Shown here piece after piece: positions 1,878-46,709 of a stretch of DNA of 64,000 nt. The position numbers and the translations under genes are program-made. This stretch comes from Moniliella sp. 'wahieum' (lineage: Eukaryota > Basidiomycota > Moniliellomycetes > Moniliellales > Moniliellaceae): positions 868,001-932,000 of the forward strand of contig RSEE01000003.1 of the NCBI GenBank assembly GCA_003971905.1. The letters are read 5' to 3'. Within the stretch, counting starts at the first letter, position 1. The number at the start of each line of letters is the position of its first letter. Under the pieces are notes generated by a model. It was given only the letters and a program-made list of their open reading frames with translations, had not been told where the DNA came from and made no database searches.

Positions 1878-4675
1878 ATGTCAACTGCCACCATCGCCAC
1901 CGCCCCCTACTCGCCCAGTTCCCTCACCCCCACGGCGGCCTCGTCCCTCCAACACCGTCGACTAGTAGTACTAGTACACCTGCCGGTACACCCAACCCTG
2001 GCACGCGTCCCGCTCATCGGCAGAGCGCTACGTCCCTGGCACATATGAGTCCCCCAAGCTCCCACACACCAAACAGTAGCCTCGCCGACTCGGCGATCAT
2101 TCATCTTGCCCCTGCTTGGGACGAGAGCAGCTTGGATCTGGCCTCATCCCAATCGCTTTCTGCTCCGCTGGAACCGCCACAGCGCATCCCCGAAGAGACC
2201 AGCATGCGCTCCACCCTCTCGTCATCCGAAAAAAGCACACACCAAAAAACAACATCCATTTCGCGAGGGATTGATGGGGGGATGTTGAACACAACAGCCG
2301 CTTGGCCGCTGCTGATGTGGCCGCCCAATTAGCCAAGCTTGACCTGACGGATCCTCGTATCCTTGCTTTGCTCACCCCCTCCCTTGCCCCGCTCAAACAA
2401 GACGAGGGAGAAAAGCTACCTCAGCCATTTGATGCGCCTCCTTCCGCCTGGCAGAGTCACGCGGCTCGTTCGTTGCCCCGTCGCCAGTCCTTGGCGTTCC
2501 TTCCGATTCTGAGGTGAACCCACATGGGAGACATGGCCTTAAGCAACCATATGAGGCTCAGGCCGGCAACACTACCGCCTCTACCAATTCTGAAATGGAG
2601 GCACTGCGAGCTCAAGTCCAGCACTTACAAAATGCGCTCAAGCAGAGAGAGTCGATTGATCTATCAACCTCGGTCTCTTCAGCGCCCCTCACGCCCCCTC
2701 TCTTTGGTCGTCCAGTTCGTCGACTGCGCCTGATCAGCCTCTTCCCCCTACCCCGATCAGAACATTGCAGCACTCTGTGGGCACACATGGAAGATCAAGT
2801 CAGCGGTCTGTCCACGAAAATGGCGAGGGTTCAAAGATCAAACACCATCCTGGCGGTCGAACGGGGACGTCCACTTCTTCCTCAGCAGTAGTGGGATCCA
2901 GTGCTATGGATGGTTTCAGTCCCCCGCGGCAAGTTCCAATTGGTACGGCAAAGGAAAAGGTGAGCGGAAACGCCCTCCACGCTTGAACATTGCGCCATAC
3001 CACGGTGAGCCAGATACACATGGGCACGCCGCCCTTTCCTCCTCCAAGAAGGATACACCGAGTTCCCTCAACATCCCGAAGAGTCCCAAGTTTGCTTTAC
3101 GTGCGTCGGATCAACGCTCTACTGCTCTCGGTTCTATCAACGAAGATGATCGGCAGCGGCACGGAGAAGATCAGGGACCAAGGGGTGCCATTCACAGCCC
3201 AGATCAACGGGACTCCCATCTTGGCCTCCGTCACCGTCTAAACCTTGGCCACTTCATAGTCAGGTGGACGATACCTACAGCAGCGTGGGAGGGCTGGATG
3301 AAGCGACGACTGTCATGGCGGAGCACGCTTCAAGTACGGGTCACTCTTCTTTTCACGAAGAACGCTTCAATGAACTTACCGGAAAGATTGGTTCGTTTAC
3401 ATTTCCCCTCCCACTTTCATTTGAAGACTGAAAAGATACTAACTTGTTGATGCAATCTCCTTTCCGATAGCTGCTTTGGAGGCAATGCTCGCTGCTCAGG
3501 CGCAGTACCAACAACCAACGAAAACCAACCCTGGTATGTTTTTACCGTCGTATCCCCCAAACCCCTCGGCCGATTCTACCAACGGGTTTATGATGGGCGA
3601 CACGTCGATGCAAGACTTGCAAATGCACGCCCAGATTCAAGCATTGGAAATGCAGTTGAACCTGTTGCGAGCTAAGCAACAATTCAAGAAGCAGCAAAAA
3701 TCGTCCCAGCAACAAATCGGAGGCACTTATCAGCACCCCCACCTTCCCTATGAACTGGACTTGAGCTCGCGTCTATCTACTTCAACGCAACCTTCAAGCT
3801 ATGGCCCGCCCACACCTACCGATGCTCATCCCACCGTTTCTTTTCGGAGCAAAAAACGCAGACACACCAGCTGCAGCCTGTCCGCCTTGGTGTGCACCCG
3901 GCACGGCGGACGAGAGCCATGAACCAAGTTGTATTGCTCGCGAGCTGCGTTCGCTCGGTGGAACTAAGCGGAGGATTGGGCCAAGGGAAGTGGCTCCAAC
4001 ACGACTCTGGATCGGAGAGCTGCACCTCCTCCGACAAGAGCTCTTCCCACGGATCAAGTACGCACCATCGTAAAGGTCTGACCGCGGCCCTGCGGGATCG
4101 GATGGGTAATGCATCGCGCCAAAGTTTCGAGCAGCGACCGTGTTGCCATTCCTTCTTTCGATGCTGGGGACAATGACTTACCGACAAGTAAGACCAAAAA
4201 AGAAGAGACCAACAAGCGCATTACCCGTCTCTTTCGGTCTACCGTCACAGCTCGACGAGCAGACTATGAGGACGCCCCCGTCTTGTTTATCCGGATCGCA
4301 ATCTAAAATTCAAGCAGGGTCCGGGACGGGGGCGATTGTACATCCAGAACTCGTCGGCGGGACGTCCTCCCTATCCAACCTAGGTGCTTCTATCTCTACC
4401 AGACGACGAAACCACACACGCTTTTTTTGCTTTGGATTTTTCTCCCAACTCTTACACTCTCATTTTGCTTCTACACTATTCCTCGTTTGCTTCTTCATTG
4501 GAAGCACGACCTTCTCTCCACAACTCTTCCAATCCGTCTTTCTGATCCCCCTGAGCGAGATATGCCCGGACTTCCTTCCGCTCTATCCTCCAACACACCT
4601 CATTCCTTAAGTAGCTTTAATACATCAGGCTTGGCCCTTCGGAAGACATCGATAACCGCCCATAACAGATTATGA
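1878..4675 (+). CDS. Unrecognised low-complexity protein with coiled-coil segments
   Basis: I do not recognise a family. The frame must be followed across several one-base shifts. It starts at an ATG at 1878 (MSTATIATAPYSPSS), is rich in Ser, Thr and Pro, and contains a short coiled-coil-like stretch near 2590-2650 (EMEALRAQVQHLQNAL) and a second, Gln-rich one near 3620-3720 (QIQALEMQLNLLRAKQQF). One intron is clear, at 3391-3470: donor GTTCGT, a perfect TACTAAC branch point at 3437-3443, acceptor GATAG. It joins ELTGKI to AALEAM. The 3' end is uncertain: the coding-like signal continues to about 4310 and possibly to the stop at 4675. It converges on the alcohol dehydrogenase gene. The composition suggests a disordered regulatory or scaffold protein, but that is only inference. 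Confidence 0.5.
3391..3470 (+). other. Spliceosomal intron with perfect TACTAAC branch site
   Basis: Donor GTTCGT, branch point TACTAAC about 25 bases before the acceptor, acceptor GATAG. Removing these 80 bases restores a continuous frame (GKI|AALEA). Confidence 0.75.
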
Positions 4676-4923: not shown

Positions 4924-6063
4924 TTACTTGTCCACATCGAGGACGATGCGGCCAGCAAGCTTGCCTTCGTGCATCTCGGCATAGACCTCGTTCAGCTGGG
5001 AGAGACCACGGGTGTGGTAATGACACGGACCTTGCCCCGCTCGGCAAGACGGAGGGCCTCGATGGCATCCTCCGGTTGCCCACGATGGAGCCAACGATGC
5101 GCTTGGCCGTGACAGTTGTGTCAAACACGTCGGCTTGATGAACGTGCCGGGAGGCATACCGACAGCGACCAGGGTACCACGTGGGCGGAGGTAGGCCAGT
5201 CCTTGGGTGTACGCCGCCTCGGATGCGGCGGCCACTACGGCGGCATGGGCACCAAGTCCACCGGTGATCGCCTTGACTTCCGCAACAATGTCTTTGCACT
5301 CGCGGAAGTCGATCCAGGCGTCAGCCCCGAGCTGCTCCACCAGCGCTTTCTTCTCAGCGCCCGTGTCGATGCCAATCACACGGTAGCCCATTGCCGCGTA
5401 TTGTACACCCAAGTGGCCCAGTCCACCACCGGCACCGGGAAGGACCACCAGTCCCCCACCGAACAGCTTGGCCTCCAGCAGGGCACGGTAGATTGTCACG
5501 CCAGCGCATAGAATTGGCGCGGCATCAATGAGGCGGGAGCGCATCGGGGATGGGCGTGACGTACTTGGCAGGCGCCACGACGTATTGCTGGAACGTGCCA
5601 TCGACAGTGTACCCTGAGTTCTCGAGGTGAATGCAGTTCGGCTCAAAGCCCACGCGGCAGTACTCGCAGTTGAGGCACGCCGAGGCGACCCACTTGATAC
5701 CCACACGAGCACCCTTCTGGATCCACTCGTCCGAGCCCGTGCCAAGTTTGACCACCAACCGGCACCCTCGTGGCCGCCAACCAGCGGCTCCTGTCGCTTC
5801 GAGTTTGGTAGGCAAGGGCCAGTCGCCGGCATGGCATGCAAGTCACTAATAACCACGTCAGTTCGAATTCCTGATAGGACCTGATGAAAGGACGTACGTG
5901 TGGCAGACACCAGTGTAGGTAATGCGGACGAGCACCTCGCCAGGCTTGAGCTCAACTTGGCTCGGGTCGTACGTGACGAACTTGATCGGGCCACCGACTT
6001 TGTCAAGACGGCCTTGGTGGCCGTGGTAGGCACCTCGAGTTGTTGTTCGCGAATGTCGGTCAT
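4924..6063 (-). CDS. Zinc-dependent alcohol dehydrogenase (MDR family)
   Basis: This is a cytosolic-type NAD(P)-linked alcohol dehydrogenase that interconverts alcohols and aldehydes. The start is the ATG at 6063 (MTDIREQQLEVPTT). Visible features in order: catalytic-zinc Cys in CHTDLHAM, created by removing an intron at 5846-5897 (GTACGT...TTAG); GGHEGAG with the second zinc ligand; the structural-zinc motif CLNCEYCRVGFEPNC; the third catalytic ligand in LCAGVTIYRAL; the Rossmann loop VLPGAGGGLGHLG; and the C-terminus EMHEGKLAGRIVLDVDK ending at 4924. The length (about 350 residues) fits the family. There are at least four one-base frameshifts (after ATKAVL, around the GGHEGAG segment, before APILC and near LTQLSRP), so the gene is readable only across frames. 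A TATA box lies about 100 bp upstream and the leader is CT-rich, suggesting strong expression. Confidence 0.9.
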   Translation of the reverse strand: MTDIREQQLEVPTTATKAVLTKSVARSSSSRTTRAKLSSSLARCSSALPTLVSATRTSFHQVLSGIRTDVVISDLHAMPATGPCLPNSKRQEPLVGGHEGAGWWSNLARARTSGSRRVLVWVSSGSPRRASTASTAAWALSRTAFTSRTQGTLSMARSSNTSWRLPSTSRPSPMRSRLIDAAPILCAGVTIYRALLEAKLFGGGLVVLPGAGGGLGHLGVQYAAMGYRVIGIDTGAEKKALVEQLGADAWIDFRECKDIVAEVKAITGGLGAHAAVVAAASEAAYTQGLAYLRPRGTLVAVGMPPGTFIKPTCLTQLSRPSASLAPSWATGGCHRGPPSCRAGQGPCHYHTRGLSQLNEVYAEMHEGKLAGRIVLDVDK

Positions 6064-6159
6064 AGGGAGATAGGTTGGAGAGGCGGAGGAACGGTTGCAG
6101 AGAAAGAGGGGGAAGCAAAGCTGCTGGGGAGAAGAGTAACGATCTACAAAAACACCGCG

Positions 6160-6167
6160 ATATATAG
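6160..6167 (-). promoter_or_regulatory. TATA box of the alcohol dehydrogenase gene
   Basis: TATATA on the minus strand, about 100 bp upstream of the ATG at 6063. It is followed by a pyrimidine-rich leader (purine-rich on the plus strand, 6065-6125), the usual fungal core-promoter arrangement. Confidence 0.55.
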
Positions 6168-7383
6168 CCCCGTATTACAGTTGAGCCCGCACCTACAACC
6201 GAGCTCATGATGCATGACACCGATCCATGGCAGGTCCGTGCGTCTGCACGGCCCATTTCCACTGACGGAGGGCTGACACGCGACAGCGCCAACCAAACCG
6301 AATCTCACCTGAGAGCGCAGCTGCCTTCATGCTTCAGCCGCAAAAAGTGAGTCGGGGAAGAAGGATATCCCGACTGAGTATTGAAGCACAATGAGGGGGG
6401 GCTCCGCGAGGAGAGTGGTCCAAGATGGCGTGGCTGAACAGGTGCTCAAATTGGCGGTGGTTTGTGCCTCCGCCAGTCTCTGCTCTTCAGGCGTTTTGGC
6501 CAGAGGCGTGAATGTTAGGGGGCAGGCACGGGGGACGATCGGCCTGATCACTCAGTACAACATCCGCGCTCAGCCTCAGGGCCTCGTGGTGCGCTCATAT
6601 CCCAGCAGTAAGCCAATCATGTAATCATGCCCTGGGCTCATATCTCTGGCCTCTGGCCTCTGATCCAAACTATCGATCCGTAGGGGCTCATATCTCGCGC
6701 GACTACGATGGCGGCTAGCGCTTCGTTGCACTTGCTCCAGTCCCTGCGCCCACTTGCGCCCACACCAAGACCTGTGAGGCGTAGCGCGTAGGAGGGCGTA
6801 GGCCTAACGTCACATGGTGCGCCCAGCTTGAGAACGCTCAGGCGCTCAGGCTCGCTCAGCGCCGATATATCACTGTGGCGGCAGGGCGGTTGTGGCGCCG
6901 ACAGATGGTGGCGATGGTGATGAATTAGACCATGGAACCAAATCCCATACACCTCTAGAGAGCCCCCGTGCGCCACAGTGCATATTTTATCCACGCTGCA
7001 TTTGATTCGACTCGAAGAGTGGCTTCATGTTGCGCAGCGCTTCAATTTTTTACGCCGGCATCATTAAACTGACGACAGCCCTGGAAGTGTGATGTGATCC
7101 ATGTGATGTCCGACATGTGTCTCTGGGCCAAGCGCCCAGGGCTTGCTGCGGTCTGCTATCCAACTCTTCAGCCACAGTGCTGCTCTTCTGTGCTTGCTTT
7201 TTCAGCTTCAGCAGCTTCAGCTTGGGCACCTAGCCAAGCTTAGCTACCATCGATTCAAGAGTGGGTCAAGCATTATGGTACTGGGCAACTTGTGCGCTTC
7301 CCGCCTTTCCTTGTTTCCTTGGGCTTTTCCACTGGGGCACGAGTCTTAAACGTTACAAACGGGAGCCCTAAAGTAAAGTGACG

Positions 7384-7416
7384 AGTGACTAGTGACGTCA
7401 CCAGTCACTAGTCACT
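7384..7416. repeat. Perfect 13-bp inverted repeat
   Basis: The arms AGTGACTAGTGAC (7384-7396) and GTCACTAGTCACT (7404-7416) are exact reverse complements separated by 7 bases. Each arm contains the palindrome ACTAGT, and the sequence could form a hairpin or cruciform. Confidence 0.85.
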
Positions 7417-7715
7417 AGCCTCCGTTCCGCTGCATACGCGTGTGCCCCTATAATTCATCCAGTTCCGCCCCGTTCCTCTCCGCTTCCGTCGAGCGCTTCA
7501 TGCTTCAAGCCGGTCAGGCACCTGTGCATTCGGAATCGGCAGGACTCGGAGTACACGGCCATGCCATCCAGGTCATCTTTATCTCTTCTCTGGTGTGTAT
7601 ACGCGTACGCCTGGGTTGACCAGTAGCTAGTAGCCTCCGATGTGTGAAAGCCCCAAGATCATGCATCACCATATCACCAACCAACCAACCTCCCATCAAT
7701 GCATGGTCGATGATG

Positions 7716-7736
7716 ATCGATGATCGATGATCGATG
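7716..7736. repeat. ATCGATG heptamer x3
   Basis: Three exact tandem copies of ATCGATG (the palindrome ATCGAT plus G), flanked by partial copies on both sides. Confidence 0.9.
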
Positions 7737-8470
7737 ATCTGAGACGCTGCGATGGCTCCCAGGCAACACTGGGCTGGGCCATGGCACGGTCGCGCTGTGC
7801 CTTGGTGGCCGGGGGGCACTGTGTGGGGTTGCGGGCTATGACGTGCGTGCTGCTCCGGATCGCCTGCGCTGGCACAGGCGTCGCGCTGCGCTGCCGCATT
7901 CCGTGTTCCTTGGGGAGCAGCCGTCGTTCCAAGCCAGCCCCCGCGACCGCTGCGCTCGCTAGCACGACCCCCACGCGCCCCCGCCCCCGCCGTCTGCTCA
8001 TGCTCAGTTTTCCTCCTCCTCCTCCTCCTCCTCCTCTCCCTCCCCCCGCTCTCGCCCGCCATCTGCGAGGCCTGGGCCGCACCTCGCACCACATGTCTGC
8101 CTCTGCCATGCGCACCACCCTCCACCCGCTGCTCACCATGACCGCCGCCAGCACCCCCGACCGCGTCACCAGGCCCAGTTGAATGCCCGCCCGACTCGTC
8201 CACCACCCATCGCTCGACCGTCTGCGCGCCGAACCGAGTCCCGCTACCTCCAGCGGACAAGAAGAGGAGATAGCCGAGGGTATGAATGATGAACGCAAGC
8301 GTGGCGTTGAACGCACTTCGGTCCCCCATCTACTTGATCCACGCCGCCAGACGACCCCGTCCATTGTTTCTCCTGAGCGACACCCACTGCGAGTGCGCGG
8401 CGCACCCTCAGACCCAGTCACAGGGACACGGTGACAATGACCTCATCTGTCCTCTTGCTCCCACGGGCAG

Positions 8471-17174: not shown

Positions 17175-17656
17175 ATGCCCAACGTTCGTGACGTGGCTGC
17201 CGACCTGTTCATCCAAGAGTACGCCGAGCACCTGCGTCGGTCGGGCAAGATTGAGTTGCCGACGTGGGTGGACATTGTGAAGACGGGGGCGTACAAGGAG
17301 CTGGCGCCGTACGACGAGACGTGGTTCTACGTCCGTGCGGCCGCGGTCGCGCGTCACATTTACCTGCGCAAGTCGGTGGGCATTGGCGCGTTGCAAAAGT
17401 ACCAGGGCGGTGCGCAAAACCGCGGGTACCGGCCTTCCAAGCACGCCGACGCTTCCGGCTCTGTCCAACGTAAAGTGGTCCAAGCGCTGGAGAGCATTGG
17501 GGTGCTCGAGAAGGATCCCAAGGGCGGACGCCGCATTTCGCAAGATGGTATGCGTGACTTGGACCGGATTGCGGTTGCTTGCTTGGAGAGCAGGCCGAGG
17601 AAGAGTCTGAGGAGGAGTCTGAGGAGGACGAGGACGAGGACGAGGACGAGGAGTAG
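17175..17656 (+). CDS. RPS19: 40S ribosomal protein S19 (eS19)
   Basis: Small-subunit ribosomal protein needed for maturation of the 18S rRNA 3' side and part of the 40S head. The sequence MPNVRDVAADLFIQEYAEHL starts at 17175 directly after a TTGCAG. It is followed by the strongly conserved IELPTWVDIVKTGAYKELAP, WFYVRAAAVARHIYLRKSVG, IGALQKYQGGAQNRGYRPSK, HADASGSVQRKVVQALESIG and GGRRISQDGMRDLDRIA, i.e. the complete family core. Near 17590 a one-base shift moves the frame. In the second frame the protein continues as an acidic tail (GEQAEEESEEESEEDEDEDE and so on) to the TAG at 17654-17656. The unshifted frame would give an implausible Arg-rich tail. The gene converges on the RasGEF gene. The long antisense frame over it is a shadow of the GC bias. 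Confidence 0.95.
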
Positions 17657-18289
17657 GCTTCCGCCCTGTTGATGCAGGACCAAAATCAAAATCGCTCGCA
17701 TGGCTCGTCGTGTGCCCGAAAGATACGTAGGCATACTCGATCCTTGTCCGCGCTAAGATTTAGGATGCTTCCGCAAAAACGGTTACAGGCACCGATTTAC
17801 TTGTCACATGACACTGAGCATGATAATAAGACCCTTTCACTCTGTATTGCGGCTACGCGATGGCACAATAGGTTGGCAGTGGGCATTGCAATAGGATGCT
17901 TAGCGCTTATGGGGGCGGAGGGGATATATTGTCGAACCAGCGAAGTACATATGTAGCCGAAGAATGGAACGGATATAGGGTGTCACATGCGTCAGGTGAC
18001 AAGCAGAAGGATCGTAAGCCATGGCCATGGCAGGCAACGGGGTGGGGTCGTAAGATAAGCAATGACGGGAATGAAGAATGAGAGTATGAGGCGTAGCTGG
18101 GAAAGGTCGAGAGGGGATGAAGGGATGTGGAAGAAGACAAAGACAAGGAAAGGTGCTTGACCGATGATCCAGTAGAGCCTTGTAGAGGCAATAAGAAAGC
18201 TCGGTCAGTGCAAAGGCACCGAAGAACCGAATGCACATGCTGATCGAAGGTAGTGAAGGGGGGCTCGGTCCCGCCACTGGAATCATCCA
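17657..18289. other. Space between S19 and the RasGEF 3' end
   Basis: Holds the 3' end and terminators of two convergent genes. The exact stop of the RasGEF gene is not clear: one frame stays open to 17900. Confidence 0.4.
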
Positions 18290-21200
18290 ATGTGAGGGGC
18301 TGGACACATTAGGGATAGTAGGTACTGTGGAACAGGGCGACAGGGGCGCAAAGGGCGGGGGCGCGGTCCGTCGTGGTTCCAACTTTTGCGAGCGCTGATA
18401 CAGTAGATCACCAGCTTCTTGGCTTTCCTCAAGGTATGTTACGAGCCAGGTTTGGATCTCGGGCACGGCCTGGAGCGCATACAGCTGACCTTGGACCGTC
18501 ACCAAGTCGTCCACGAGCCGGGCTAGACGATCGTAGCGAACCCAATTGATCATATCTGAGTCGTTCACCATCTTTGACGCCTGACAACCCGGATGGCCGC
18601 CGGCTCGGGCCATTGCCCTGCAACGTAAATACAATGTCCCCTGCCGCAATGCCGACAAAGGGCAGAAACGGCGAGCGGGTTCGTAAGGCATCTTGGAATC
18701 GTTGCCGGTACTCGGTAAAGTTGTGGCCAGGGAGCGTCATGGCCTCGTACGCCTTGGCCCAGTCCTTGTATTTGGCCGGCAATGCTTGCCAAGTTTTGTG
18801 CAGCCGACGTACTGCCACCGCCCCGATCCCGCTCTGAAGCGAGAAGAAGGCATGCAGGTTTTGCAGCAGCAGACATTTCTGTAGCGGGGCAAGGTCAATA
18901 TCTTCCGTCGTCTCGCCGAGTATGGGCAGTAGTAGGAACTATAAATGCCAACAAGCGAGTGGAGTACATACGCGGGAGAGTTTGAGAAAATAGATCAGGG
19001 CATCTTTACGCTCCTTGACCGTATCGAGGGCCAAGATGGTGGCCTGGACCCAACTGGCAAGCTGGTTGCTGAGGTCCGAGAGCACCTTGATGGGCGCGGG
19101 CGTGCCTTCGTCCCCCACATCCAACCCCACCGTGTCCGACGAAGGGGTCTTCTTGGGGGCTACATATTTGCCCCAAAATTGCTCGGGTGTGATGGAGGCA
19201 TACACACGACTGACCAACACGGTCAACTGACGTGCCATCTCGCCCGTACTAACCTCTGTCACACTTGCTGTGCCCTCGCGCAACCGAGCCAGGAGCGAGC
19301 GGCTTAGGTTTGGGGTGGGGGCTCCCGAAGTGGACCAGCCAGGGGTATAGAGCGCGTCGGTGGATTGGCTCTGGTCAGGTGGCTCAATGGTTCGGACCAA
19401 GTCGGTTTGGATGCCATCACCCACAAGCCGCATTTGCACTGTTCCCCCTGCCGTTGTTCTGCGGGTGACAAGGGCCAGCACATCGGCTGCTCCTGTCATC
19501 GTAGCGAGCTTGGTCAGCGTGGGCAATAACAAGGCATCGTCCAAGTCTGGACGCCAGTATGCGTCCGACATCCACAACCGAACAAAGCTGATGATGTTGG
19601 TTCGTTGTTGCTCGCCGGCCTGGGTCCAGAGGTCGACAAGCAGTTCAGCCAACTGGCTTGCACGACAAAACAGCGGCAGCGTCAAACAAAACCGTTGCGC
19701 CAGCTTGGTCTTATCGGTCCGCGACCGGAAGCAGTGTGCGCACACCCTTGCAGACTGCCGCCCAGTAGAACGCCTTCGGAGTTGTACGTGACGCCTTCCT
19801 CAGATGGAGGCACTTCCGCCTCATTTTGAGTTGCCTCTGGCTCGTTTGACACTTTGAGTTCGCGTGAGGAAGGCTTGGGCATCTCAGAGGGAAAGCCGGA
19901 ACGTCGTCTCATCCGGTTTAACAGGTTTTCTACACTGGGCCCCCGAGACACAAGGGAAGAGGTGGTGGAGCTGGGCCGGGCATGGCGAATAGAGAGTTTA
20001 TGGCGAAGCGAGTTGATCGGGTCAAGGACAGTGGTGGAAGCCGTTCCACCTCCACTGACACTGAGAGAGGCGCTGGTACCAGAGGGCGATGCGAGAGGGC
20101 TGGAGCTCTGCGCCCGGGCAGAAAGGCGGTGCCGCAGCGGCGGCATGGTGAAACTTTTTGACCGGGGCTAGAGATCAACGACAGGCGCGACAGGCCACGG
20201 TCCCTTTTCATTCGATGATGCAGCCCGCCATCGTCCGACAGGGAGCTGGCCTCCCCGTCCCCCTTGGGCAGCGGTCGACGACGGACAGGTGACGAAACCG
20301 AACGGAGAGACGAGGGCGTATGGCACTTTTCCATCAGAGTCGACACTTGGATCACCACATCTTCCCTGTTGGCCTAGGGAGCCGGACGGGCAGAAGGATG
20401 AGGAGAAGGTGATGGATTGGAGCCAGAGTTGGGTCTGGGTACAGAGGCATCTAATAGGAGGCTGGACTAGGCACAGGGACAGTGAGTCACACAGGAGAGA
20501 GTGCAGGGCACAGGGACAGTGACACGCAGGGACGTCAGCGTGGAAGCCGATGGAACCGAGGCGAACCTGGTCTACCGACTGGGAGCCAGAGGATCACAGT
20601 CAACACCCCCTGGCCAGGGAACCCGGAGACATCGGTTGTGGGATGAGCTCCTGCCAGTGGATGTAGAGAGGGGAGGACTTGAGTGGCAACCGGGACGAAT
20701 GGCCTGGAGTTGTGCATGGCCACACGACTGGCCTACACCCCCGCTGTCCAGGATGACACCTGAACGAGCCGAGCGCTTGTGGTTGGTGTATTGTGCGACC
20801 GCCAGATGCTTGTAGAAGTCTTAGAAGTAAAAGTAGTAGGGGTTGCGCCCCGAAGCGATTTGGTGGGCAAAAGTAAAAAGCACCAGTTATAGGTGTAGTG
20901 AAGAAAATTGGAAACTTGGAGTAAATGCGGTCCAAGGTCGTTTGGCATCAAAATTGGATGCGTTTGGTAGTTGTTTGGTTCCGCATGCCTGGTGCCAGTG
21001 GGGTCCATTGGGCATGGAAATGAACGGGCGCTATGCGTCAACCGTCTTGATCTGTTTGGGTTCTCTTTGTTGTTGAAAAAGAGGAGTGGAAGAAGTTGGG
21101 TGACCACCCCCCCCCATCCTTTCCCCAGGTGCCCCGGATGAATTGGCAATCCGGGGCGTGTAGCCGTGGGTGGGGCACTTGATGAGCAGCCACCCCCGCT

Positions 21201-22977
21201 TTCTGCGATTCGCCTGCGCCGTTTTGTCGTTGGGGAGGAATTCGTCTCGTTGACGATACCCGACACGTTTTGTTCCGTCGTGTGTTGTCCCTAAAAATCA
21301 TTGCCCCATCTGTGGGGGACGAGTGTGCCGATTGTGGCGGTAGTATGCCGATTGTGGCGGTAGTATGCCGATTGTGGCGGTAAGGTGCCGATTGTGGCGG
21401 TGGTGTTGTTGGGCGGGAGGACGGGTGTGTCTTGTGGCTTGGCGGCTTAGCTTGGGCTTGTAGGCTTGGGGTGGCTTGCTTGAAGAGCGCTCCCTTCCGG
21501 GGGGATCAGATTGTAGCTCTGTTGGCCTAGGGAGCCGGACGGGCAGAAGGATGAGGAGAAGGTGATGGATTGGAGCCAGAGTTGGGTCTGGGTACAGAGG
21601 CATCTATATAGGAGGCTGGACTAGGCACAGGGACAGTGAGTCACACAGGAGAGAGTGCAGGGCACAGGGACAGTGACACGCAGGGACGTCAGCGTGGAAG
21701 CCGATGGAACCGAGGCGAACCTGGTCTACCGACTGGGAGCCAGAGGATCACAGTCAACATTCCCCAAGACGAGAAGGTCGGATGCTGCCGAGATAGCAGG
21801 TGCGGCCATGAGGGCGACACTGGGCGCTTTCACGTCGGAATCTTCAGAATCAGCCAAGGTCAGCTGGCGCACTGCGCTCAATAGCTTGGAGGAGGCTTGT
21901 AGAAAATCGGACCGAGTCAAACGGAGTGTGGTGAGTGCGCGGCTGTTGGCACGGCGAAGATAGGGATCGATACAGAGCTGGTCCAAGTCACGAATGATCA
22001 CGTTGATCGCATCGTACACGGCCAAGGTGGCCTCGACCACCGATTCGGACGAAGGGGAGGCAGCTTGTTCTGAGAGAGGTAGCTCGGACGAATCCGAACG
22101 GGAGTGCATAAGGGCCTGGACATGGGCGTGGATGGCACGATGAAAGTTGGGACAGGCAACCAGCAAATTCGTTTGTGCCTCCTTGATCCCCTGCACTCGC
22201 ATACTTGCTTCCTCCAGCCAAGTGTACGCGATGTTTCGTCAAACGCAAAGGAAACGGTATTAGCGCTTCTGGATCCATTGGAGGCAGGGGATTCCACGTC
22301 AGAAGGGGAGGAAAGCATTGGCTTGTCTCCCTCAACAGGCGTCACGTCCAGCATGTCCCCGATGGCAGAGATGATGTGGTAGGCACAGCTGATCAACTTG
22401 TTCTCCGATTCGGCTGGAGGAGCAAGTGGGGCGGTTGTCTCACCCAAGTCGGTAGCGAGGTCAAGCAGGCACTGGACGAAGGAAAGGAGCGTTTTGCGTC
22501 GGGCGGCGACGGTGGGGTTACTACACCACTGTCGTCGGCATGGAGGCAGTTGATGGAGGTGAGGGTGGCACGTACACCGGCACGGAGTAGGCGAGCATCG
22601 GCAAGGTAGAGGGAACGTTGCTGCGCACGGACGTGGGAGATGAGAAGGGTGGCGGCGGTTGTGATGTAGCTTGGAATGCGTATGTGGGCAGGCCGGGGAT
22701 GAGGGGAAGACGAAGGGCCAGGTGGGAGAGCATCTGGTCAAAAGAGGCTACGTGGTTGCTGGGAAACCACCCGCGCTGGCCATCCATCTCGCGTCCCACC
22801 AGCCACTGGGGTGGCGGTTGTACACGAGGATCTGGGCGCCAGCGACGATGGGCAGACAGTTGGCCTGCGTCGGGGAGGGGTGGTAGTCGTACAAAGCATA
22901 GACGAGGTCGGGTGCGCCGTCGCCCGGGCCGGGGCCGGGGGCTGGCCCAGGGTCAGGGGATCTGGGGGGCTGGACAT
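18290..22977 (-). CDS. CDC25-type Ras guanine-nucleotide exchange factor (SH3-RasGEF_N-RasGEF), interrupted by an LTR element
   Basis: Activates Ras by GDP/GTP exchange at the membrane, feeding the cAMP/PKA pathway in fungi. Reading down from an ATG at 22977, the product has: an SH3 domain (DLVYALYDYHPSPTQANCLP, HPSGWWDA, RGWFPSNHVASF; about 22905-22735); a helical linker (LLSFVQCLLDLATDLGETTA; ESENKLISCAYHIISAIGDM); RasGEF_N (start EGVTYNSEGVLLGGSLQ, then QLAELLVDLWTQAGEQQRTN; about 19810-19550); and RasGEF (VRRLHKTWQALPAKYKDWAK, GHNFTEYRQRFQDAL, FLPFVGIAAGDIVFTLQGN, MINWVRYDRLARLVDDLV; about 18880-18380). A complete mobile element (20367-21759) lies between SDLLVLG and EDVVIQVSTLMEK. Many one-base shifts are present. 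A stop near 18942 is avoided only by splicing GTATGT...TATAG, a very short 33-base intron. The 3' end is uncertain. Confidence 0.85.
20362..20366. repeat. Target-site duplication TTCCC (left)
   Basis: TTCCC directly before the left LTR, repeated exactly at 21760-21764 directly after the right LTR. This is a 5-bp duplication, as made by LTR-retroelement integrases. Confidence 0.9.
20367..20605 (-). repeat. LTR of copy 1 (left)
   Basis: 239 bp, TGTTGG...GTCAACA. It differs from the partner LTR by a single missing base near 20456 (CTAATAGG against CTATATAGG). It contains two near copies of a CAGGGACAGTG motif (CACTGTCCCTG on the other strand), which may be enhancer-like repeats. Confidence 0.9.
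21326..21405. repeat. Four 20-bp tandem repeats inside copy 1
   Basis: Four adjacent units of TGCCGATTGTGGCGGTAGTA. The last two differ only in their final bases (TAAGG and TGGTG). The same array is present in copy 2. Confidence 0.9.
21520..21759 (-). repeat. LTR of copy 1 (right)
   Basis: 240 bp, the fullest LTR version in the window, with an intact CTATATAG box and TGTTG/CAACA termini. Confidence 0.9.
21760..21764. repeat. Target-site duplication TTCCC (right)
   Basis: An exact match to 20362-20366. Confidence 0.9.
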
Positions 22978-24585
22978 GATGGCGGGGAAGAGGATGACGA
23001 GCGGCTGGAAGATGGGAGCAAGCGAGGGGACACGGCAGGCAGGGGCCAGACTGGAAGAGGAGCGGTATGAAGCTTGAAGACGCCGGGGGCGGGACCTGGT
23101 GGGACCCGGTTGGGCGCACAGGGCAGGCGAAGTGTCCGTAGGGTGCGTGCATTATGCATCAAATTGCAGCCGGCCCACCGTGACAGATGCAACCCCCGCC
23201 GTCCGTGGCGAAGGGCAAGACAGATGCGAAGACGGGCAATATGCTTTGTGCTGTTCTAAGGGCGATCGCAGAGGGGGCTGGTGCCCCGACGGCAACAATG
23301 CACATCTCAGCCCGATGATCGGTGATTGATCGATCAGATCGTCAGAACCGATCAGGCCCAGGGCCTCGCCGTGCTGCGCTCCGTACTCAGTCGGAGCGCT
23401 GCTCAGTCATTCGGTCTAGTAACGCTAGTAACTAGTGACTCAGTAGGCAGTCGGAGTACTGCTTCGTATCGCCAGTTAGTGCCCAGCGCCCAGGACGCAG
23501 TCTCTCAGTACTGAGACACCGTCCCCAGCGGAGTGTGGATTCGATGAATATGAGTACGAAATTTGAAGACGCGTTGCGGCTGCGACACGGCACAGCGCCT
23601 CCATGCCGCATTGTTCCCCCCAGGCACCCAAGACCCCAGCCAGGGCTGCTGCGTGGGCGACGTGCGGGCCATGGCGCTTTTCTTTTGATGACTTTCGATG
23701 GTCGCTGCCGGTGACTGGCCCGGCCTCTTTGGTCGCCTGCTTTGGAGCATGGTCCGGACATTGGCCGGTGCCGGGGACGGTCATGGGATGGGCCAGACGG
23801 CAGGCTTGCCTAGTAGCTACTAGCTCCGACTAGTTCCGCAGGAAAGCTACTGCCTGCTACTGCACGTCACATGTCACATCGCAGCGGAGCGCGAGCTAGG
23901 AGTGGGCAGCAGCTAAAAATGCGCTCACACCACCCACCCAAGACGCACAAAAGCTTGCCGCCATTGGTGTATGGCAGGCCTGCGTTAGAAGCAGATGTCT
24001 GATGTCTGATGCATGACATGAAGCAAGTGCGTACTTAGTTCTTGCTTACTAGGTACAGGGTACGTACACTGAGCGCGAGCCGAGCATTGAATATGACATG
24101 CTAGTACCGCGTTGCGGCCTGTTGCGGCCCGTTGTGCGTGTTGCGGCGGCTGGGGCTGCTGTGGCAGCCTGTGGCAGCCTGTGGCAGCCTGTGACAGTCC
24201 TGCTGCCCAGCCACAGCGGGACAATCCACCAGCTGCTTTCAGATCCCAGGATCTCACATGTCGCATGTCACATGTCACACCTCTAAGCTTTGCAACTGCA
24301 CCCCGCCTTCCGCCTCTGCGTGGCTGGGGTGGAGCCAGTTGGGCGTGCTGGGCGTGCTATGACGTACCTTGCGCTGGGCCAGTCGGGTCCCTTGTTCTGT
24401 GGCTCCATGTCCCAGATGGCTTCCTTCAAGCTTCACGCAAATGCAGCACATGCGTCGCACGCCAACGACGTTGCCCGCCAAAAGCCAAATTGGGTTCATT
24501 ACAACGCCGAAGCGCAGCCAGGGCGCTCACTCGCCCCATTTCAATTGAAACCTTCGGAGCTTCGGCGTTTTTAGTACTTTCTCTG

Positions 24586-38976: not shown

Positions 38977-40690
38977 TCAGCGACTCCACTGGCCCTTGAC
39001 GCCGGAAGCCGGCTTGGGCTTGTAGTGTCCCGCCTTCTTGTCCGGCCCCTTATATCCCTGCGCCGAGCCACCCTAGCCCGTTTGGCCTCTTGCGCCTCCT
39101 CTTCTTCCTCGGCGTCAGCATCAGCATTGCCCTCGCTCTTGCGCTTGGGGGGACCCTTGAGCGCCGCACCAACAGAAATGTTGACTTTGGGTGGCACCTT
39201 GAACCCAAATGCCCGCCCTACCTTGGCAAGGTCGAGCTGGTGCACGTCAAAGATGCGCTTGAGCGAGTAGGAGGCATACGCGGACAGGTAGGCTCGGTAG
39301 CCCTCCTTGGCGCTCTCGTGCAAAAAGTAGTTCTTGGAAATAAGTTTCTCCAGTTGGCCTTGGACGTTGGCAATCTTGTTGGGTGGGAAGGTGTACTCGT
39401 TAAGCGGCACCTTGGCCAGCTTGAGGAAACGGAGGAAGCCCAGCTCCGATGGAAGAAGGAACAGAGGGATTTGCCGGCCTTACCCGCACGTGCCGTACGT
39501 CCGACGCGATGAATGTAGTCGCGCGGATCGTCAGGAGGATCGAACTGAATGATCCAATCGACCTTGGGGATATCGAGCCCCCGCGCTGCTACGTCTGTAC
39601 ACAGCAAAATGCCTTCGGGAGCATTGCAAAACTCGAAAAAGGTGTTGGTCCGCTTCTGCTGTTTCTGCTTGCCGTGCAGATCAAGCACAGGCACGTCAAT
39701 GTAATTGAGCAGCTCGGCGTGGTACTTGACGCTGTTGCAAGACGACATGAAACAATAGCTTCTTTCCCTTGTTCTTTTTCAAAAACGTAAAGAGCAGCAG
39801 GAAACGCTTGTCGCTATCGCATACCACGTAACCCTGCTCCAGGCCCGTCACGGTTGAAGCCAACTTGTCGGCGTGGACATTGATGTACAGCGGGCCAGGA
39901 CGCAGCGAAATGCGAGCCAAGTCCTGCACTTTGGTTGTCTGGGTCGCCGAAAAGAGCATCGTCTGCCGGTTTTCTGAGGCAAGACGGAGAAGGGCGTCAG
40001 TTTCAAGTGGGGATTGAACGTGTAAGGAGGAGAGTAACGTACCACTGGGAAGCAGATTGATAATCTGACGCATTTCGTCCTCAAACCCAATCTCGAGAAT
40101 GCGGTCGGCCTCGTCAATAACAAGTGCCTTGAGGTTGGACACGACGAAGCCCTTGGTATTCCTCAAATGATCCAGCAACCGCCCGGGGGTTGCAATGATC
40201 AGGTTGAGACCTTTTGTAACTTATCGGCCTCCTGTTTTCGGTTCGCACCGCCCATGATGATCCCAAACGTTTGGCTTAGGCCCCGCGGCCCATAATCTCC
40301 TTGGCCACACCAAAAATTTGCAGCGCCAGCTCACGGGTTGGCGAGAGGATGATGGCGCCCGTCCCATTACGGGGCTTGAACTTGAGCCGGTGCAACAGCT
40401 CAATGGCGGGAACAAGAAAGGCAAGTGTCTTTCCCACTGCCAGTCTGCGCTGCTCCCAATACGTCCCGCCCAGCCAGAAGCGGAGGGATGCAGCGCGATT
40501 GCACTTCCGTCATGGTCTTGAAACCCATCGCGTCCAACCCCTTGGCCGTGGCAGGCGTCAAATCGAGCGTGGAAAATGGAGGTCGCTCCTCGGAGGACTT
40601 TTCCCCCGTACTAGAGCTGCCCTGTTGACGTTCGTCCTCGGCAACATCGGCGGCCAGCTGGGCGGCCAATTGCTTCTCAGCGCTGTCCAT
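38977..40690 (-). CDS. HAS1: DEAD-box ATP-dependent RNA helicase HAS1 (DDX18 orthologue)
   Basis: Nucleolar helicase for 40S and 60S ribosome assembly. The start is at 40690 ([20 protein letters not shown]). Motifs in order: Q region [20 protein letters not shown], motif [31 protein letters not shown] in [23 protein letters not shown] in [31 protein letters not shown]. The HAS1-specific C-terminus is [40 protein letters not shown] and [21 protein letters not shown] 69-base intron at 39974-40042 (GTACGT...CTCAG) joins NLLPS to ENRQT. Frameshifts interrupt motif I, the region before motif Ib, the segment after LLFTFLKKN, the stretch near FFHRS and the tail. The corrected tail ends [16 protein letters not shown] at the stop at 38977. 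Confidence 0.95.
39974..40042 (-). other. Intron in HAS1
   Basis: GTACGT...CCTCAG, 69 bases. Its removal gives the unbroken [18 protein letters not shown] block. Confidence 0.85.
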
Positions 40691-42362
40691 CTTGTTGCTG
40701 GTGGTGGGTGCAACGTCACGCTGGAGACTTGGTCCAGCTAAAGAAAATTAAAAGGGCTGGTCTCAGGTGCATTTTTTTGCACCGATGCACCACGAGAAAG
40801 GCTGAGCGCTGGCACATGACGGGTCACGTGCCACACTTGTCATGCCACATGTCACGTGTCACGATGGCGTAGCCAGCCGAACTTGAAGTTTCAAATATCC
40901 CACTATCGGCGCCATATCGGCTGGCGCTGGTCTTTACTATCTTCGCTACTGCACTTTTTTGCGGCTATATACATGCACCTGCTTCTATAACTAGGGGTGG
41001 TCCTCCGCACGAGTACTTGTACGCTGTCCACTAGTCACTAATGTTGGAGTGTGGTGGCATGTGGCACTTGATCAGCCATGTCGCTGTTGGCAAGCGGAAC
41101 TATCTACAGAGTTCATCCACGACTCTCGCCCGCTCTGGATTGGTTACCGTCGCGCCTCGTTCCCCTCCTTCCTCTTCTCCCTGTTGCATTCGAGGTCGAA
41201 CTAACGTGAGTAGCTTACGAGAAACAGTGCATTCGTCTTTAGCTGGTAAGGTAGCTACTTCTCAGTTGATGGACAACCGCGGTTCTGGGCTCTCTTCATT
41301 GGTGTGACCGATTTATCGCGCTCACCCATTGATCTCTCTCCAGTCTAGAGCTTCCCCCTATAGCCCTCATTCTTTCAACTAGTAGCTGGTACTGCGTCTG
41401 CTGTTGGCCTCGGAAACACATCCAAACGGACTCTGCAGCGGTGGCAGAGGAGAAGGGTGTGTATACTATAGCGTTTGACATATATATATGGCGTCTCTCT
41501 TCTCGGAGACAAAGGGCACGCCAGGGAAAACACCCTATAGGCGAAAATGAAGAAGCCATCAGTAGCATGATGTGGCGCTGTTCCCGGGCGACTCCGGAAA
41601 CTTGCATCGCATAGGAAGAAGGGGTAAGTCCGTGGGACTCCTTGCTGAAAGAGACAGAGTGTGGCACCCACTTTGAAGCATGTGTGGGCGTATATAGCTG
41701 TGGAGGGAGTAGTGTTCCATTGCACAATATAGTATTTGGCACCAAACGGAAGACGGATCGGAGAGAAACGAGACGGAGAATACGTGTGGTGTAGTAGGTA
41801 AGGTTCATGCGGGAGATACTTGAAGGCCACACTGGAGACTACAGGGACTGTCGGCGTCACGAAGATGTTATGCATTATGGGGGGTGGCGCGGGACACTTC
41901 TCTCATGGCTCTCGGCGGGCGAGGTTGAGGCGAGTGCCACTGGAAATGCCACGTATTTCCCAAAAGTGCCCTGATTCATGAGCAGAGTTTGCCTTCAAGT
42001 TGGGAGCCTTGCTATGTGCACTCCGGTGAACGTTAAAGGAGGGACTGGAAGAACTGAGGGATGGGTGGGCTTGCTCCACTTCGGTCTGGCAAATCACAGG
42101 CATCACGGTTTTTTCACATGCCCACATAGCGCGTCCACACAAAGATGGCGTGCGTGACAGAGCACACAGTGTAGTGTTCGCGAGTAAGTACTAAGTCAAC
42201 ATTGGAAGGATACTAGGAAGATCAGGCCGGTTAGATACCGGTCAGGCAAGATTGGTCCAGACCGTAGAGTACTGTGCGTCCCTTCCCCAATTTAGTGGCG
42301 ATCACAAGTAGAGATCTCTTGGTCCAGAGGGGTAAGCCGCAGGCTCTGATCTTTTCTGTCTA

Positions 42363-42386
42363 AGATCTAATGAGATCTGAGATCTG
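42363..42386. repeat. AGATCT heptamers
   Basis: AGATCTA, a 3-base gap, then AGATCTG twice in tandem (42373-42386). Confidence 0.85.
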
Positions 42387-43314
42387 AGAGCACTTCAATA
42401 TTCAATGCAGCCACTTTTAACCACCACAATCATTCAAAGAACATCACAATGTGGGGAGATGCAGTTTTAACGTCAGATTTTGCAGATTCGGCTGTGCTCT
42501 AGCAAGCGCCGATTACATGTTACAAAGAGGACGATCATCAATCATCCCCCACACAGTATCACGGGGAGCACCCAAGGTCCGTTTTTTCGCCTCCGTCATA
42601 TGAAGAAGACTAGTAATATATGCAAGCTGCAGACACCACAGAACCCATAAAACTGTTAAGAATATGTCGGTGCCAATGCCGGACCGTAGCCTGATGGTGG
42701 TCCCCCCGTGGAGTTTATAGGAGGAGTATCTCAGCGAACAAAGGTCCGAACTGCGACAGTTACGTATACTTTAACTGGGTTTGGTGGTGAATCCGAGCGG
42801 GAATACGAAAAGAGAGGTCAAAAAAGAGGACTCGGACTATGGACTCCGCCAGGGGCTCGCGCGCTCATGATCACCTCCCGGTCCGTCTTGGGGGAACAGT
42901 TTGTACAGTGTGGCGGAAAAGACCTTGTTGTGGCGATGGCTCTCAGATCTCATCGTCATTCACATGCCCACTTTTTCACACGACCTTTTTGTTTGGAAAT
43001 GAGAGAATGGCGTGAGCCAAGAGAGAGGGTGTTGATATCTGTGTGTGCTGTTGGCGACGGAACGTCATTAAGATAATTGACATCCTGATCAGTGGGAGGG
43101 CGAAAGCTGACAGCAGACGCCGGATGAGCGACCCTAGTTTAGCAGAGTGAGCGATGGGCATCTTCGTCCCGGCGCTGTGGAGATTTTGCAGTAGATATGG
43201 TGCAGCTCTCCTCGTTTCGATCTTCTCAGACACCTCATTCATTGCCCGTAGTCGACGATAGAGAGGTGCGGTGTTGTACCTTCGCGGGGTAGTAACCACG
43301 CACAATGTATTATC

Positions 43315-43351
43315 AGGCCTCAGAGGCCTCAGATCTCAGATCTCAGAGCTT
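43315..43351. repeat. In-phase heptamers AGGCCTC/AGATCTC/AGAGCTT
   Basis: AGGCCTC at 43315, then AGGCCTC, AGATCTC, AGATCTC and AGAGCTT in unbroken 7-base phase from 43324. The first four units carry perfect palindromic hexamers. Confidence 0.88.
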
Positions 43352-43474
43352 CACTTCCATGTTTTGTTCTCCGCGAGAGGCTGTTTTGTCAACGCTGGCA
43401 GAGCACATGTCAGCCGCTCAACAGCCCACCAGGTTCATATACCAACTGCGTTGATGGTATGTGCCATGTGCATG

Positions 43475-43516
43475 ATGCATGATGCATGAACGTTGAACGT
43501 TGAACGTTCAAGTTGG
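43475..43516. repeat. Six in-phase heptamers ATGCATG/AACGTTG
   Basis: ATGCATG, ATGCATG, AACGTTG, AACGTTG, AACGTTC, AAGTTGG: a composite run that switches palindrome without losing the 7-base phase. Confidence 0.9.
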
Positions 43517-44915
43517 ACATCGACCGCATGCAGAAGACGCCCAAAACGGGGGGGGTGCCAAGGTTGATTGGATTCTAGGGGTGGGTGGGGGTAGGGAAGT
43601 CGGAAGGGTCAAATCTGAAAGCACGACTGTACAGCGGCGCCCCTCTCCACAGCCTTCCCCAGCTCGAAGGCTCAAACGTTCAAAAACGTCAAGCATCAAG
43701 TGCGTGGCCTGTTTCATGATGCATGATGGCATCATGATCGACATGATTGTGTGCGTTCCAGTGCGATGATGATCGATGATCAATGATAGGTTGGCGGACG
43801 GCGGCACAATCGACCACTATGCACTATTGCAAGTTGCCGTTTTTGCCTCCTCCTTGGTCTTGTGTCAGACAGGCACGCAAGCTTGAAGCTTGAGGCTTGA
43901 CTCCCCTAGTGCTGGGCATCGATTTGCCAAGAAAACGCGTGTACACTGCTCAGATGCCAGGCGTAGCCATGTGATGCATGTGACCTGTAACCCGGGTGCA
44001 CGTGACCAGCACCTCCAAGTACCTGCCCCCCCCCCTTTGACATTTGTGCAAATACGCTGCTGGCTCCTGTGTGGGTGGGGCTGTGGGATGTGGGCGCTCA
44101 GAATGTGAGGTCATTGACATTGACATGTTGGCATCATCCGCCATCTACCGGCCCTACTCCCTTCCTGTGATTGTCATGCCATCTAGTCAACAGCCTCTAA
44201 TGCAGCATTTTCACAATATTCCGCTCTGGCGCAAATCATGCGTTTTGCCATTGGTGACTAGGGTTTACAGTCTTGGCAAACGACGAGCTTACAGGTGGCA
44301 TCTTGGCGCAAGGCATCTCGGCAAAGTGTTTGTGTGCGTCTGAAAAAGTCGGTGGACGGCGCTCTGCGGCAGTCTTCCTCTTCCCTCCTTCCTACCCCAC
44401 ATGCTCCTCTCGGTTCCGGTGTGTGATAGATGGCGTTCGCTCCGTAGCTGTTGTGATCGATGATCGGAACGATGATCGATGCGACGATCTTTTCAGCTCC
44501 GAACGGGGGGGCGCAATTTGGGCAGGCACGCGGGCAGGATGTAGCTGCGAGATGCCCTGGGATGCTGTACTGGGATGTCTGCCGACCCATTTTTGTCGAT
44601 GAAGGTAGTCAACATTGAGTTCAACCTAGTCAGCACAGGCAGTTGCTAGTCAGATCCCAGATCCATTAATTGCCGTATATGGCCAGAGGTAACCAGGGTA
44701 CTAAGTACTAACCGGACTATAACTGCGGGAAGTAGAAGGCCGGTAACCGGGACACGGGATCCGCGTGTGCCGATGAGGTCGATGATCGATGTCGACGGGT
44801 CTTAAGCAGGTCGAACGAGGGTGCGTGCAGATCCTTAATGACAGGTGACATATGCGACAATCCAGGCCGTTTGAGGGGGGTTGGGGTGGCACTCTCAATG
44901 TGGTAATCGATAAAT

Positions 44916-44920
44916 GATCA
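44916..44920. repeat. Target-site duplication GATCA (left)
   Basis: Directly before the LTR and repeated exactly at 46306-46310. Confidence 0.9.
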
Positions 44921-45158
44921 TGTTGACTGTGATCCTCTGGCTCCCAGTCGGTAGACCAGGTTCGCCTCGGTTCCATCGGCTTCCACGCTGACGTCCCTGC
45001 GTGTCACTGTCCCTGTGCCCTGCACTCTCTCCTGTGTGACTCACTGTCCCTGTGCCTAGTCCAGCCTCCTATATAGTGCTCTGTACCCAGACCCAACTCT
45101 GGCTCCAATCCATCACCTTCTCCTCATCCTTCTGCCCGTCCGGCTCCCTAGGCCAACA
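44921..45158 (+). repeat. LTR of copy 2 (left)
   Basis: 238 bp, TGTTGAC...GGCCAACA, with a TATATAG box. Two bases are missing relative to the right LTR just after the TATA box. Confidence 0.9.
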
Positions 45159-45277
45159 GAGCTACAATCTGATCCCCCCGGAAGGGGAGCGCTCTTCAAG
45201 CAAGCCCACCCCCAAGCCTACAAGCCCAAGCTAAGCGCCGCCAAGCCCACAAGACACACCTCCTCCCGCCCAACAAC

Positions 45278-45357
45278 ACCACCGCCACAATCGGCACCTT
45301 ACCGCCACAATCGGCATACTACCGCCACAATCGGCATACTACCGCCACAATCGGCAC
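45278..45357. repeat. Four 20-bp tandem repeats inside copy 2
   Basis: Reverse complement of the array in copy 1. The core ACCGCCACAATCGGCA recurs every 20 bases. Confidence 0.9.
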
Positions 45358-46066
45358 ACTCGTCCCCCACAGATGGGGCAATGATTTTTAGGGACAACAC
45401 ACGACGGAACAAAACGTGTGGGTATCGTCAACGAGACGAAATTCCTCCAACGACAAAACGGCGCAGGCGAATCGCAGAAAGCGGGGGTGGCTGCTCATCA
45501 AGTGCCCCACCCACGGCTACACGCCCCGGATTGCCAATTCATCCGGGGCACCTGGGGAAAGGATGGGGGGGGTGGTCACCCAACTTCTTCCACTCCCTTT
45601 TTCAAAACAAAGAGAACCCAAACAGATCAAGACGGTTGACGCATAGCGCCCGTTCATTTCCCATGCCCAATGGACCCCACTGGCACCAGGCATGCGGAAC
45701 CAAACAACTACCCAAACGCATCCAATTTTGATGCCAAACGACCTTGGACCGCATTTACTCCAAGTTTCCAATTTTCTTTCACTACACCTATAACTGGTGC
45801 TTTTTACTTTTGCCCACAAATCGCTTCGGGGCGCAACCCCTACACTTTTACTTCTAAGACTTCTACAAGCATCTGGCGGTCGCACAATACACCAACCACA
45901 AGCGCTCGGCTCGTTCAGTGTCATCCTGGACAGCGGGGTGTAGGCCAGTGTGGCCATGCAACTCCAGGCCATTCGTCCGGTTGCCACTCAAGTCCTCCCC
46001 TCTCTACATCCACTGGCAGGAGCTCATCCCACAACCGATGTCTCCGGGTTCCCTGGCCAGCGGGGG

Positions 46067-46305
46067 TGTTGACTGTGATCCTCTGGCTCCCAGTCGGTAG
46101 ACCAGGTTCGCCTCGGTTCCATCGGCTTCCACGCTGACGTCCCTGCGTGTCACTGTCCCTGTGCCCTGCACTCTCTCCTGTGTGACTCACTGTCCCTGTG
46201 CCTAGTCCAGCCTCCTATATAGATGCCTCTGTACCCAGACCCAACTCTGGCTCCAATCCATCACCTTCTCCTCATCCTTCTGCCCGTCCGGCTCCCTAGG
46301 CCACA
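46067..46305 (+). repeat. LTR of copy 2 (right)
   Basis: 239 bp. The end reads GGCCACA instead of GGCCAACA (one A missing). It is preceded by AGCGGGGG, which resembles a polypurine tract. Confidence 0.9.
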
Positions 46306-46310
46306 GATCA
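46306..46310. repeat. Target-site duplication GATCA (right)
   Basis: An exact match to 44916-44920. Confidence 0.9.
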
Positions 46311-46709
46311 TGTGATGAAAGAGTGATGAACTTCAGGCCTGAGCGCCTGAGCCTCAGGCTTCAGGCAGGCCTTATATACTGAGTAAAAGAGAATTCGGGT
46401 GTGCTTTTGCATGCTGTGTGCAGATGGGATGGGTCGTTGAAAAGGGGGAAGGTGATCGTCACTACGTCACCTTCTTGAGACGGGTTGAAAGCCAAGAAAG
46501 GACTGAAATGTTTGCTGTTGGTTCTACCTACGGCCACATATGCATCCCCCTCGAAAAATTCGGATGTGATGATGATCGTGTGACCATATGCAGCACATCA
46601 ATCAAAGATGTACATTGGCCAACCCCCTTTTTTTTCTTCCGAAGATAGCATGTCGAAGTTAGTACACAGCAACATCCCTTCAGGAAGGACATTGCCTGGT
46701 CCAAACGTG
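46311..46709. other. Space between the LTR element and the DPBB promoter
   Basis: Contains CCTGAGC/CCTCAGGC palindromic motifs at 46339-46365. Otherwise upstream sequence of the secreted-protein gene. No gene is seen. Confidence 0.4.

Follow-up and report, generated by a model that had tools for sequence, protein, structure and literature searches.

An apparently young, non-coding LTR element interrupting the coding region of an SH3/RasGEF gene in one member of a pair of homologous contigs from Moniliella sp. 'wahieum'

Terminal-repeat retrotransposons in miniature (TRIMs) are short elements with long terminal repeats (LTRs) and no coding capacity that duplicate their target and can form L3I2 and longer tandem arrays; in plants they are described as located in or near genes and as being used as exons (PMC4717578). 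Fungal genomes have also been screened for TRIMs (PMC12210899, PMC9970103, PMC7014611), and in the fungal TRIMs named Helenus, which are tied to Copia, make 5-bp duplications and are defined by a tRNA-like LTR, the majority use anticodon-loop primer sites, that of tRNA-Tyr included (Kojima 2024, PMC10886601). Priming from within a tRNA, in its anticodon region rather than at its 3' end, is described for yeast Ty5, which uses the initiator tRNA-Met, and for Drosophila copia (PMC5371799). Both anticodon-type primers and tandem TRIM arrays are already published. Yeast Cdc25/Sdc25-type Ras exchange factors carry a RasGEF catalytic domain (PMC5640605). Here, a stretch of 64,000 nucleotides from Moniliella sp. 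'wahieum' (assembly GCA_003971905.1, contig RSEE01000003.1, positions 868,001 to 932,000; the whole stretch is called the window and its contig C3) provides an instance in which an element of this general kind lies within a gene for a Cdc25-like exchange factor with SH3 and RasGEF domains.

Very probably, a very young TRIM, mobilised in trans by copia machinery by way of the anticodon arm of spliced tRNA-Tyr, has entered an exon of this SH3/RasGEF gene in one haplotype of the two that were assembled. The parts of the element and of the interrupted gene, together with a second copy of the element, are arranged in the window as follows.

18432..20361, minus strand: 3' part of the gene, with linker and RasGEF (CDC25) domain spread over several frames in the assembly (from Pfam pieces)
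20362..20366, no strand: left copy of the target-site duplication TTCCC, single on the empty homologue (L006:2963-2967)
20367..20605, minus strand: LTR of 239 bp, 3' LTR in the probable sense of the element (orientation from the primer-binding site)
20606..20613, minus strand: putative polypurine tract CCAGGGGG (sense strand), immediately before the 3' LTR, its role being presumed
20606..21519, minus strand: internal part of 914 bp, with a 20-bp tandem repeat at 21322-21401
21506..21519, minus strand: putative primer-binding site GAGCTACAATCTGA, 14 nt, adjoining the 5' LTR and complementary, with one mismatch, to the anticodon arm of spliced tRNA-Tyr
21520..21759, minus strand: LTR of 240 bp, 5' LTR in the probable sense of the element (from the LTR comparison)
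21760..21764, no strand: right copy of the target-site duplication TTCCC (from the junction sequence and the empty homologue)
21765..22981, minus strand: 5' part of the gene, with SH3 domain and linker spread over several frames in the assembly (SH3_1 in piece 22751-23158)
44921..46306, plus strand: second copy of the element, in opposite orientation, with duplication GATCA, missing at the collinear place on contig C45

The two direct LTRs begin with TG, end with CA and differ only by one 1-bp indel, and each copy of TTCCC abuts an outer LTR end, so that the LTRs of 239 and 240 bp and the perfect duplications reported by a first-pass annotation of this DNA are exact to the base. Terminal repeats, a target duplication, an empty homologous site and a putative primer-binding site are thus all present, as in an LTR retrotransposon insertion. 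The empty site on C45 and the dozens of near-identical copies elsewhere place the arrangement beyond coincidence. The internal part is short and without coding capacity, as in a TRIM, two of its longer frames (185 and 155 aa) giving no domain match in Pfam. With 1.39 kb in total and an LTR of 240 bp, the element stands at the large end for TRIMs. It shares with plant TRIMs the short non-coding structure, the duplication and the arrays described below, and differs from them in its fungal host (PMC4717578).

The evidence that this is an insertion, and on one contig only, comes from the homologous contig C45, whose collinearity with C3 was tested by means of short C45 stretches, long DNA queries being swamped by repeats. 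In the C45 locus L006, bases 1-2967 align to window positions 17398-20366 and bases 2963-4460 to 21760-23258; the two alignments overlap by five bases, which are the single target TTCCC (GGGAA in the sense of the gene). The identity of the two C45 flanks to the window is 96.2% and 94.9%, with 82 substitutions in 2,953 aligned bases and 78 in 2,650 (about 3%). Matches to C45 occur in order at window positions 5047-8023, 17398-24453, 39993-48712 (with small gaps) and 59569-62328. The second window copy is also missing from C45, where L056:4888 pairs with 44920 and L056:4891 with 46312, and C45 holds other copies of its own at about 126-129 kb, outside the collinear stretch. On the best reading, C3 and C45 would be two haplotypes in one assembly, and the restriction to one nuclear haplotype that the first-pass annotation had allowed as an escape clause becomes the preferred account. 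More distant relatives of the gene exist as a paralogous pair on contigs C97 and C95, with about 70% identity to the window gene in the matched parts and 92.7% to each other (127 mismatches and 137 gap openings over 5,906 columns); in the few cases seen, paralogues come as such contig pairs.

The interrupted gene is read from the minus strand, in the same sense as that deduced for the element. In Pfam profile searches made on separate pieces of the gene, SH3 (PF00018) scores 25.2 bits against a cut-off of 22.9 in piece 22751-23158, and RasGEF (PF00617) is above its cut-off in pieces 18942-19799 and 18432-18938. With the coordinates, these matches support the annotation's view that an LTR element interrupts the coding sequence of a CDC25-like SH3/RasGEF gene before the exchange domain is reached. 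Its finer placing, between the SH3 linker and RasGEF_N, stands as regards SH3 and RasGEF and fails as regards RasGEF_N, for which the locus pieces searched gave no Pfam match; PF00618 has 27 matches genome-wide, from 35 candidates, with none at the window locus or on C45, C95 or C97. A degenerate RasGEF_N domain may be present at the locus. Cdc25 also has an SH3 domain. A search of the PDB with one RasGEF piece gave no match at E 0.01. The gene shares the RasGEF catalytic domain with the Cdc25/Sdc25 type and differs in that its RasGEF_N goes undetected by profile (PMC5640605). RasGEF domains are numerous in this genome (51 PF00617 matches from 62 candidates, often several per gene), and some of these matches are probably homologous pairs.

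Within the gene, the frame ending in SAASDLLVLG enters the LTR and, as assembled, reaches a stop about 10 codons inside the element, and beyond the element the gene frame resumes with EDVVIQVSTLMEK. This is the layout that had been described earlier, SDLLVLG followed by the element and then by the resumed frame, and it is seen in the frames on either side. The C95 paralogue encodes SAASELGRVGEEVVTQVTDLME in a single frame across the site, the window counterpart being SAASDLLVLG / EDVVIQVSTLME; because this stretch is uninterrupted there, the insertion site is placed in coding sequence and, as judged from these translations, is exonic. On C97 the single-frame matched piece over the insertion site is shorter (LGRVGEEVVTQVT).

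Dozens of near-identical copies of the element are found elsewhere in the genome, a lower bound given that the searches favour the best matches: at least 41 matches to the LTR came from scoring the best 40 among 283 first-look candidates, and at least 48 to the internal part from scoring the best 40 among 121. A survey of duplications covered 31 rows, the second window copy being one and the other 30 being loci. Six rows extend past the end of their locus, and the remaining 25 rows with both ends represent 24 distinct insertions. A duplication is present in 22 of these, its length being 5-7 bp in the output of a script that allowed a shift of up to 2 bases per end. Seven of the 22 are compound insertions, each with one outer duplication, some being LTR-internal-LTR-internal-LTR arrays (L035, L039, L047, L048) and others less regular (L033, L040, L046). 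Across 4,049 aligned LTR-pair sites in 17 simple copies there are no substitutions, compared with about 3% between the two contigs, so that the sampled insertions are much younger than the split between C3 and C45, and the family, by the measure of its LTRs, is very young and recently amplified. When the flanks of the 31 rows were compared, only L028 with L029 and L035 with L036 proved to lie at the same place, and no single insertion was seen on two contigs among these flanks, which sample part of the family. Short flank matches (61-176 bp, 77-96%) among L035, L043, L045 and L049 were taken as other repeats; one of them begins at the edge of L045, an insertion without a duplication. From 27 frames of at least 70 aa, two of which are the window RasGEF gene, 18 that adjoin other copies were compared with Pfam, where no domain reached E 0.001, and for that reason no preference for exons is claimed.

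Some members of the family are less orderly. The region C145:51344-59655 (L027-L029 and L041) and L033 are complex insertions with inverted LTRs; the internal parts on C145 are truncated, and L033 keeps one outer duplication. These insertions resemble rearranged products of reverse transcription.

The orientation of the element rests on the putative primer-binding site: because this adjoins the LTR at 21520-21759, the sense strand of the element would be the minus strand of the window, as for the gene. Thirteen of the 14 bases of the site are complementary to the anticodon arm of tRNA-Tyr(GTA). A tRNA gene in L059 has an exon 1 ending in GTCAGATTGTAA, an intron, and an exon 2 beginning CTCTGA; ARAGORN, run in bacterial mode, labelled it as tRNA-His, and on our own reading it is probably an intron-bearing tRNA-Tyr. 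The putative site spans the splice junction of this tRNA, with its one mismatch at position 37 (our own numbering). Among the family loci that were retrieved, the base at the mismatch is the T demanded by the tRNA at 6 junctions as against C at 48, overlapping loci being counted repeatedly. The opposite orientation would have as its candidate site for a tRNA 3' end TGGCCAGGGAACC, at a distance of five bases from the LTR; it was dropped upon the anticodon-arm match and is disfavoured, a matching tRNA 3' end never having been sought.

The same 14 nucleotides also lead to a possible partner. The site followed by a non-T base occurs at 27 places genome-wide, compared with none for a reversed control, and of the eight such loci that were fetched five (L062, L064-L067) belong to one family. 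Downstream of L062 lie an integrase core and RVT_2, as well as another LTR with 99.5% identity over 209 bp, and by these features the family is an autonomous Copia element; in two frames from its gag region (L062) Pfam detected no domain at E 0.001. This family (L062, L064-L067 and L071) resembles the element in having the same primer-binding site directly after the LTR and, in three of five copies, an LTR that starts with TGTTGAC, whereas it differs in encoding integrase and reverse transcriptase and in a 209-bp LTR without a match to that of the element. By its primer type and 5-bp duplications the pol-less element probably belongs with Ty1/copia. Like Ty5 and copia it would prime from the anticodon region of a tRNA, putatively so here, and unlike it these are autonomous (PMC5371799). 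With Helenus it has in common the 5-bp duplication and the anticodon-type primer site, and it differs in that its LTR shows no tRNA-like sequence (PMC10886601). An identity with Helenus, which would call for a tRNA-derived LTR, was rejected: Rfam lists no tRNA, its only entries (RsmY and H19_3) being far below their gathering scores and taken as chance, and the best matches to A and B boxes are no better than in shuffles.

Two loci bear on the primer in another way. At the right end of L069 with L061 (C1:1545501-1550387), a tandem array of the element closes with a 3' LTR, and immediately after this comes GAGTTACAATCTGAC, which is exactly complementary to spliced tRNA-Tyr, whereas in the primer site of the element itself the position required to be T by the tRNA is mostly C. 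The last bases of the left flank there are GCATG, and with CTGACATGG on the right side CATG is repeated, its C overlapping the tail, and a full 5-bp duplication is not seen. The stretch looks like a copy of the primer left at an integrated end. In L070 (C134:91001-94500), positions 1872-2072 contain an LTR from another family, one related to L063; a G-run precedes this LTR, and GAGTTACAATCTGAC and then other sequence follow it, a possible second case, with one end of that element in view. The family may leave traces of its tRNA-Tyr primer at the ends of elements.

The assembly is apparently unpolished and rich in single-base indel errors, so that no frame call here is safe. Between the internal part of the window copy and those of 29 others there are 36 substitutions and 309 indels, 271 of the indels in homopolymers; as the window copy is the reference in all 29 comparisons, its own errors recur each time. 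Relative to C45, a one-base indel also occurs near 17589, inside a gene (17176-17655) that we take, by eye, to be that of ribosomal protein S19. At the insertion site the window is one base short of an open frame, and C45 is likewise out of frame there. The first-pass annotation had allowed for a mismatch of one base in a GGGG run; that base is indeed lacking, and further breaks occur in the gene as well. Because of the abundance of such indels, which best explain the missing base, it carries little weight and proves nothing.

Were the insertion intronic, intergenic or spliced out, the protein would be unaffected, and it is consistent with this that even in C45, where the site is empty, the assembled frame does not pass through it; the conserved stretch that C95 encodes in one piece argues the other way, as does a scan of 20250-21900 on the gene strand, in which donors of the forms GTRNGT and GTATGY are absent and the only two branch-plus-acceptor motifs occur upstream of the element (AG at 21820), with none within it. 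The one small intron recognised by eye elsewhere in this DNA, at about 47082-47145, is moreover shorter than 100 bases. Such an outcome is very unlikely, and the earlier suggestion that the element might be spliced around finds no support in the scan. It is very unlikely, too, that the C3 copy was already a pseudogene before the insertion, which would then be neutral: there are several frame breaks on C3 and also on C45, but these are mostly single-base indels of the sort seen between near-identical element copies and in the putative ribosomal protein S19 gene, and both SH3 and RasGEF are still found by Pfam. A chimera or mis-join of the assembly, of the kind that near-identical repeats of more than 1 kb invite, is exceedingly unlikely in view of flanks that are both collinear with one homologous contig and of an exact target duplicated over 5 bp.

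Another alternative concerns gain or change of function rather than loss, the sense-oriented 3' LTR driving a shortened exchange factor that lacks SH3. Element and gene appear to have the same sense, as deduced from the primer site; the 240-bp LTR contains TATATAG followed by a pyrimidine-rich stretch; no further ATG occurs from the ATG at LTR position 156-157 to the LTR end; and the first ATG in the frame of EDVVIQVSTLM is at 20334, 33 bases past the element. That ATG is preceded, however, by a two-codon open reading frame (MW) at 20360, the 3' LTR as assembled has TATTA in place of TATATA (possibly an assembly error), and the assembled frame breaks before RasGEF is reached, all of which makes this alternative very unlikely. 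A little less likely still is the idea built on it that the two haplotypes would encode a regulated and an unregulated Ras activator, the latter transcribed from the LTR without the SH3 part.

Several observations weigh against the preferred account of a young, copia-mobilised TRIM in an exon on one haplotype. Two of the 24 insertions (L038 and L045) show no duplication. The C45 allele is not in one frame, the insertion site included, and with frame breaks so common its integrity is indemonstrable. A hybrid with two subgenomes, in which C3 and C45 were homeologues rather than nuclear haplotypes, would look identical. Finally, a Copia sharing the primer-binding site is present in the genome, but its LTR equals that of the element only in the first bases (in three of five copies), so that it is no more than a candidate helper.

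On the preferred account, Ty1/copia machinery would have mobilised the non-autonomous TRIM in trans, with reverse transcription primed from the anticodon arm of the spliced tRNA, and the product would have entered the SH3/RasGEF exon of the C3 haplotype, duplicating TTCCC there. Most likely, the interrupted C3 allele would make only an SH3-linker fragment and lose the exchange domain, while the C45 allele and the paralogous genes would supply exchange activity. That the organism as a whole would lose Ras activation is unlikely and not supported, given a C45 copy free of the element, the paralogues on C95 and C97 and the numerous further RasGEF matches, even if intact frames are not demonstrable in these; the general effect on Ras activation that the first-pass annotation expected, short of its own escape clauses, is accordingly without support. 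The insertion is a real but ordinary kind of mutation. Its interest lies in offering a clean case of a recently spread, protein-less LTR element that differs between homologous contigs, with one insertion in the coding part of a signalling gene, and a ready pair of alleles in which the insertion may be tolerated under cover of the other copy or may alter dosage or protein.

About 500 bases from the second element copy, the window also contains a gene for a small secreted protein (46818-47300) with one short intron, which by eye we take to resemble a double-psi beta-barrel protein.

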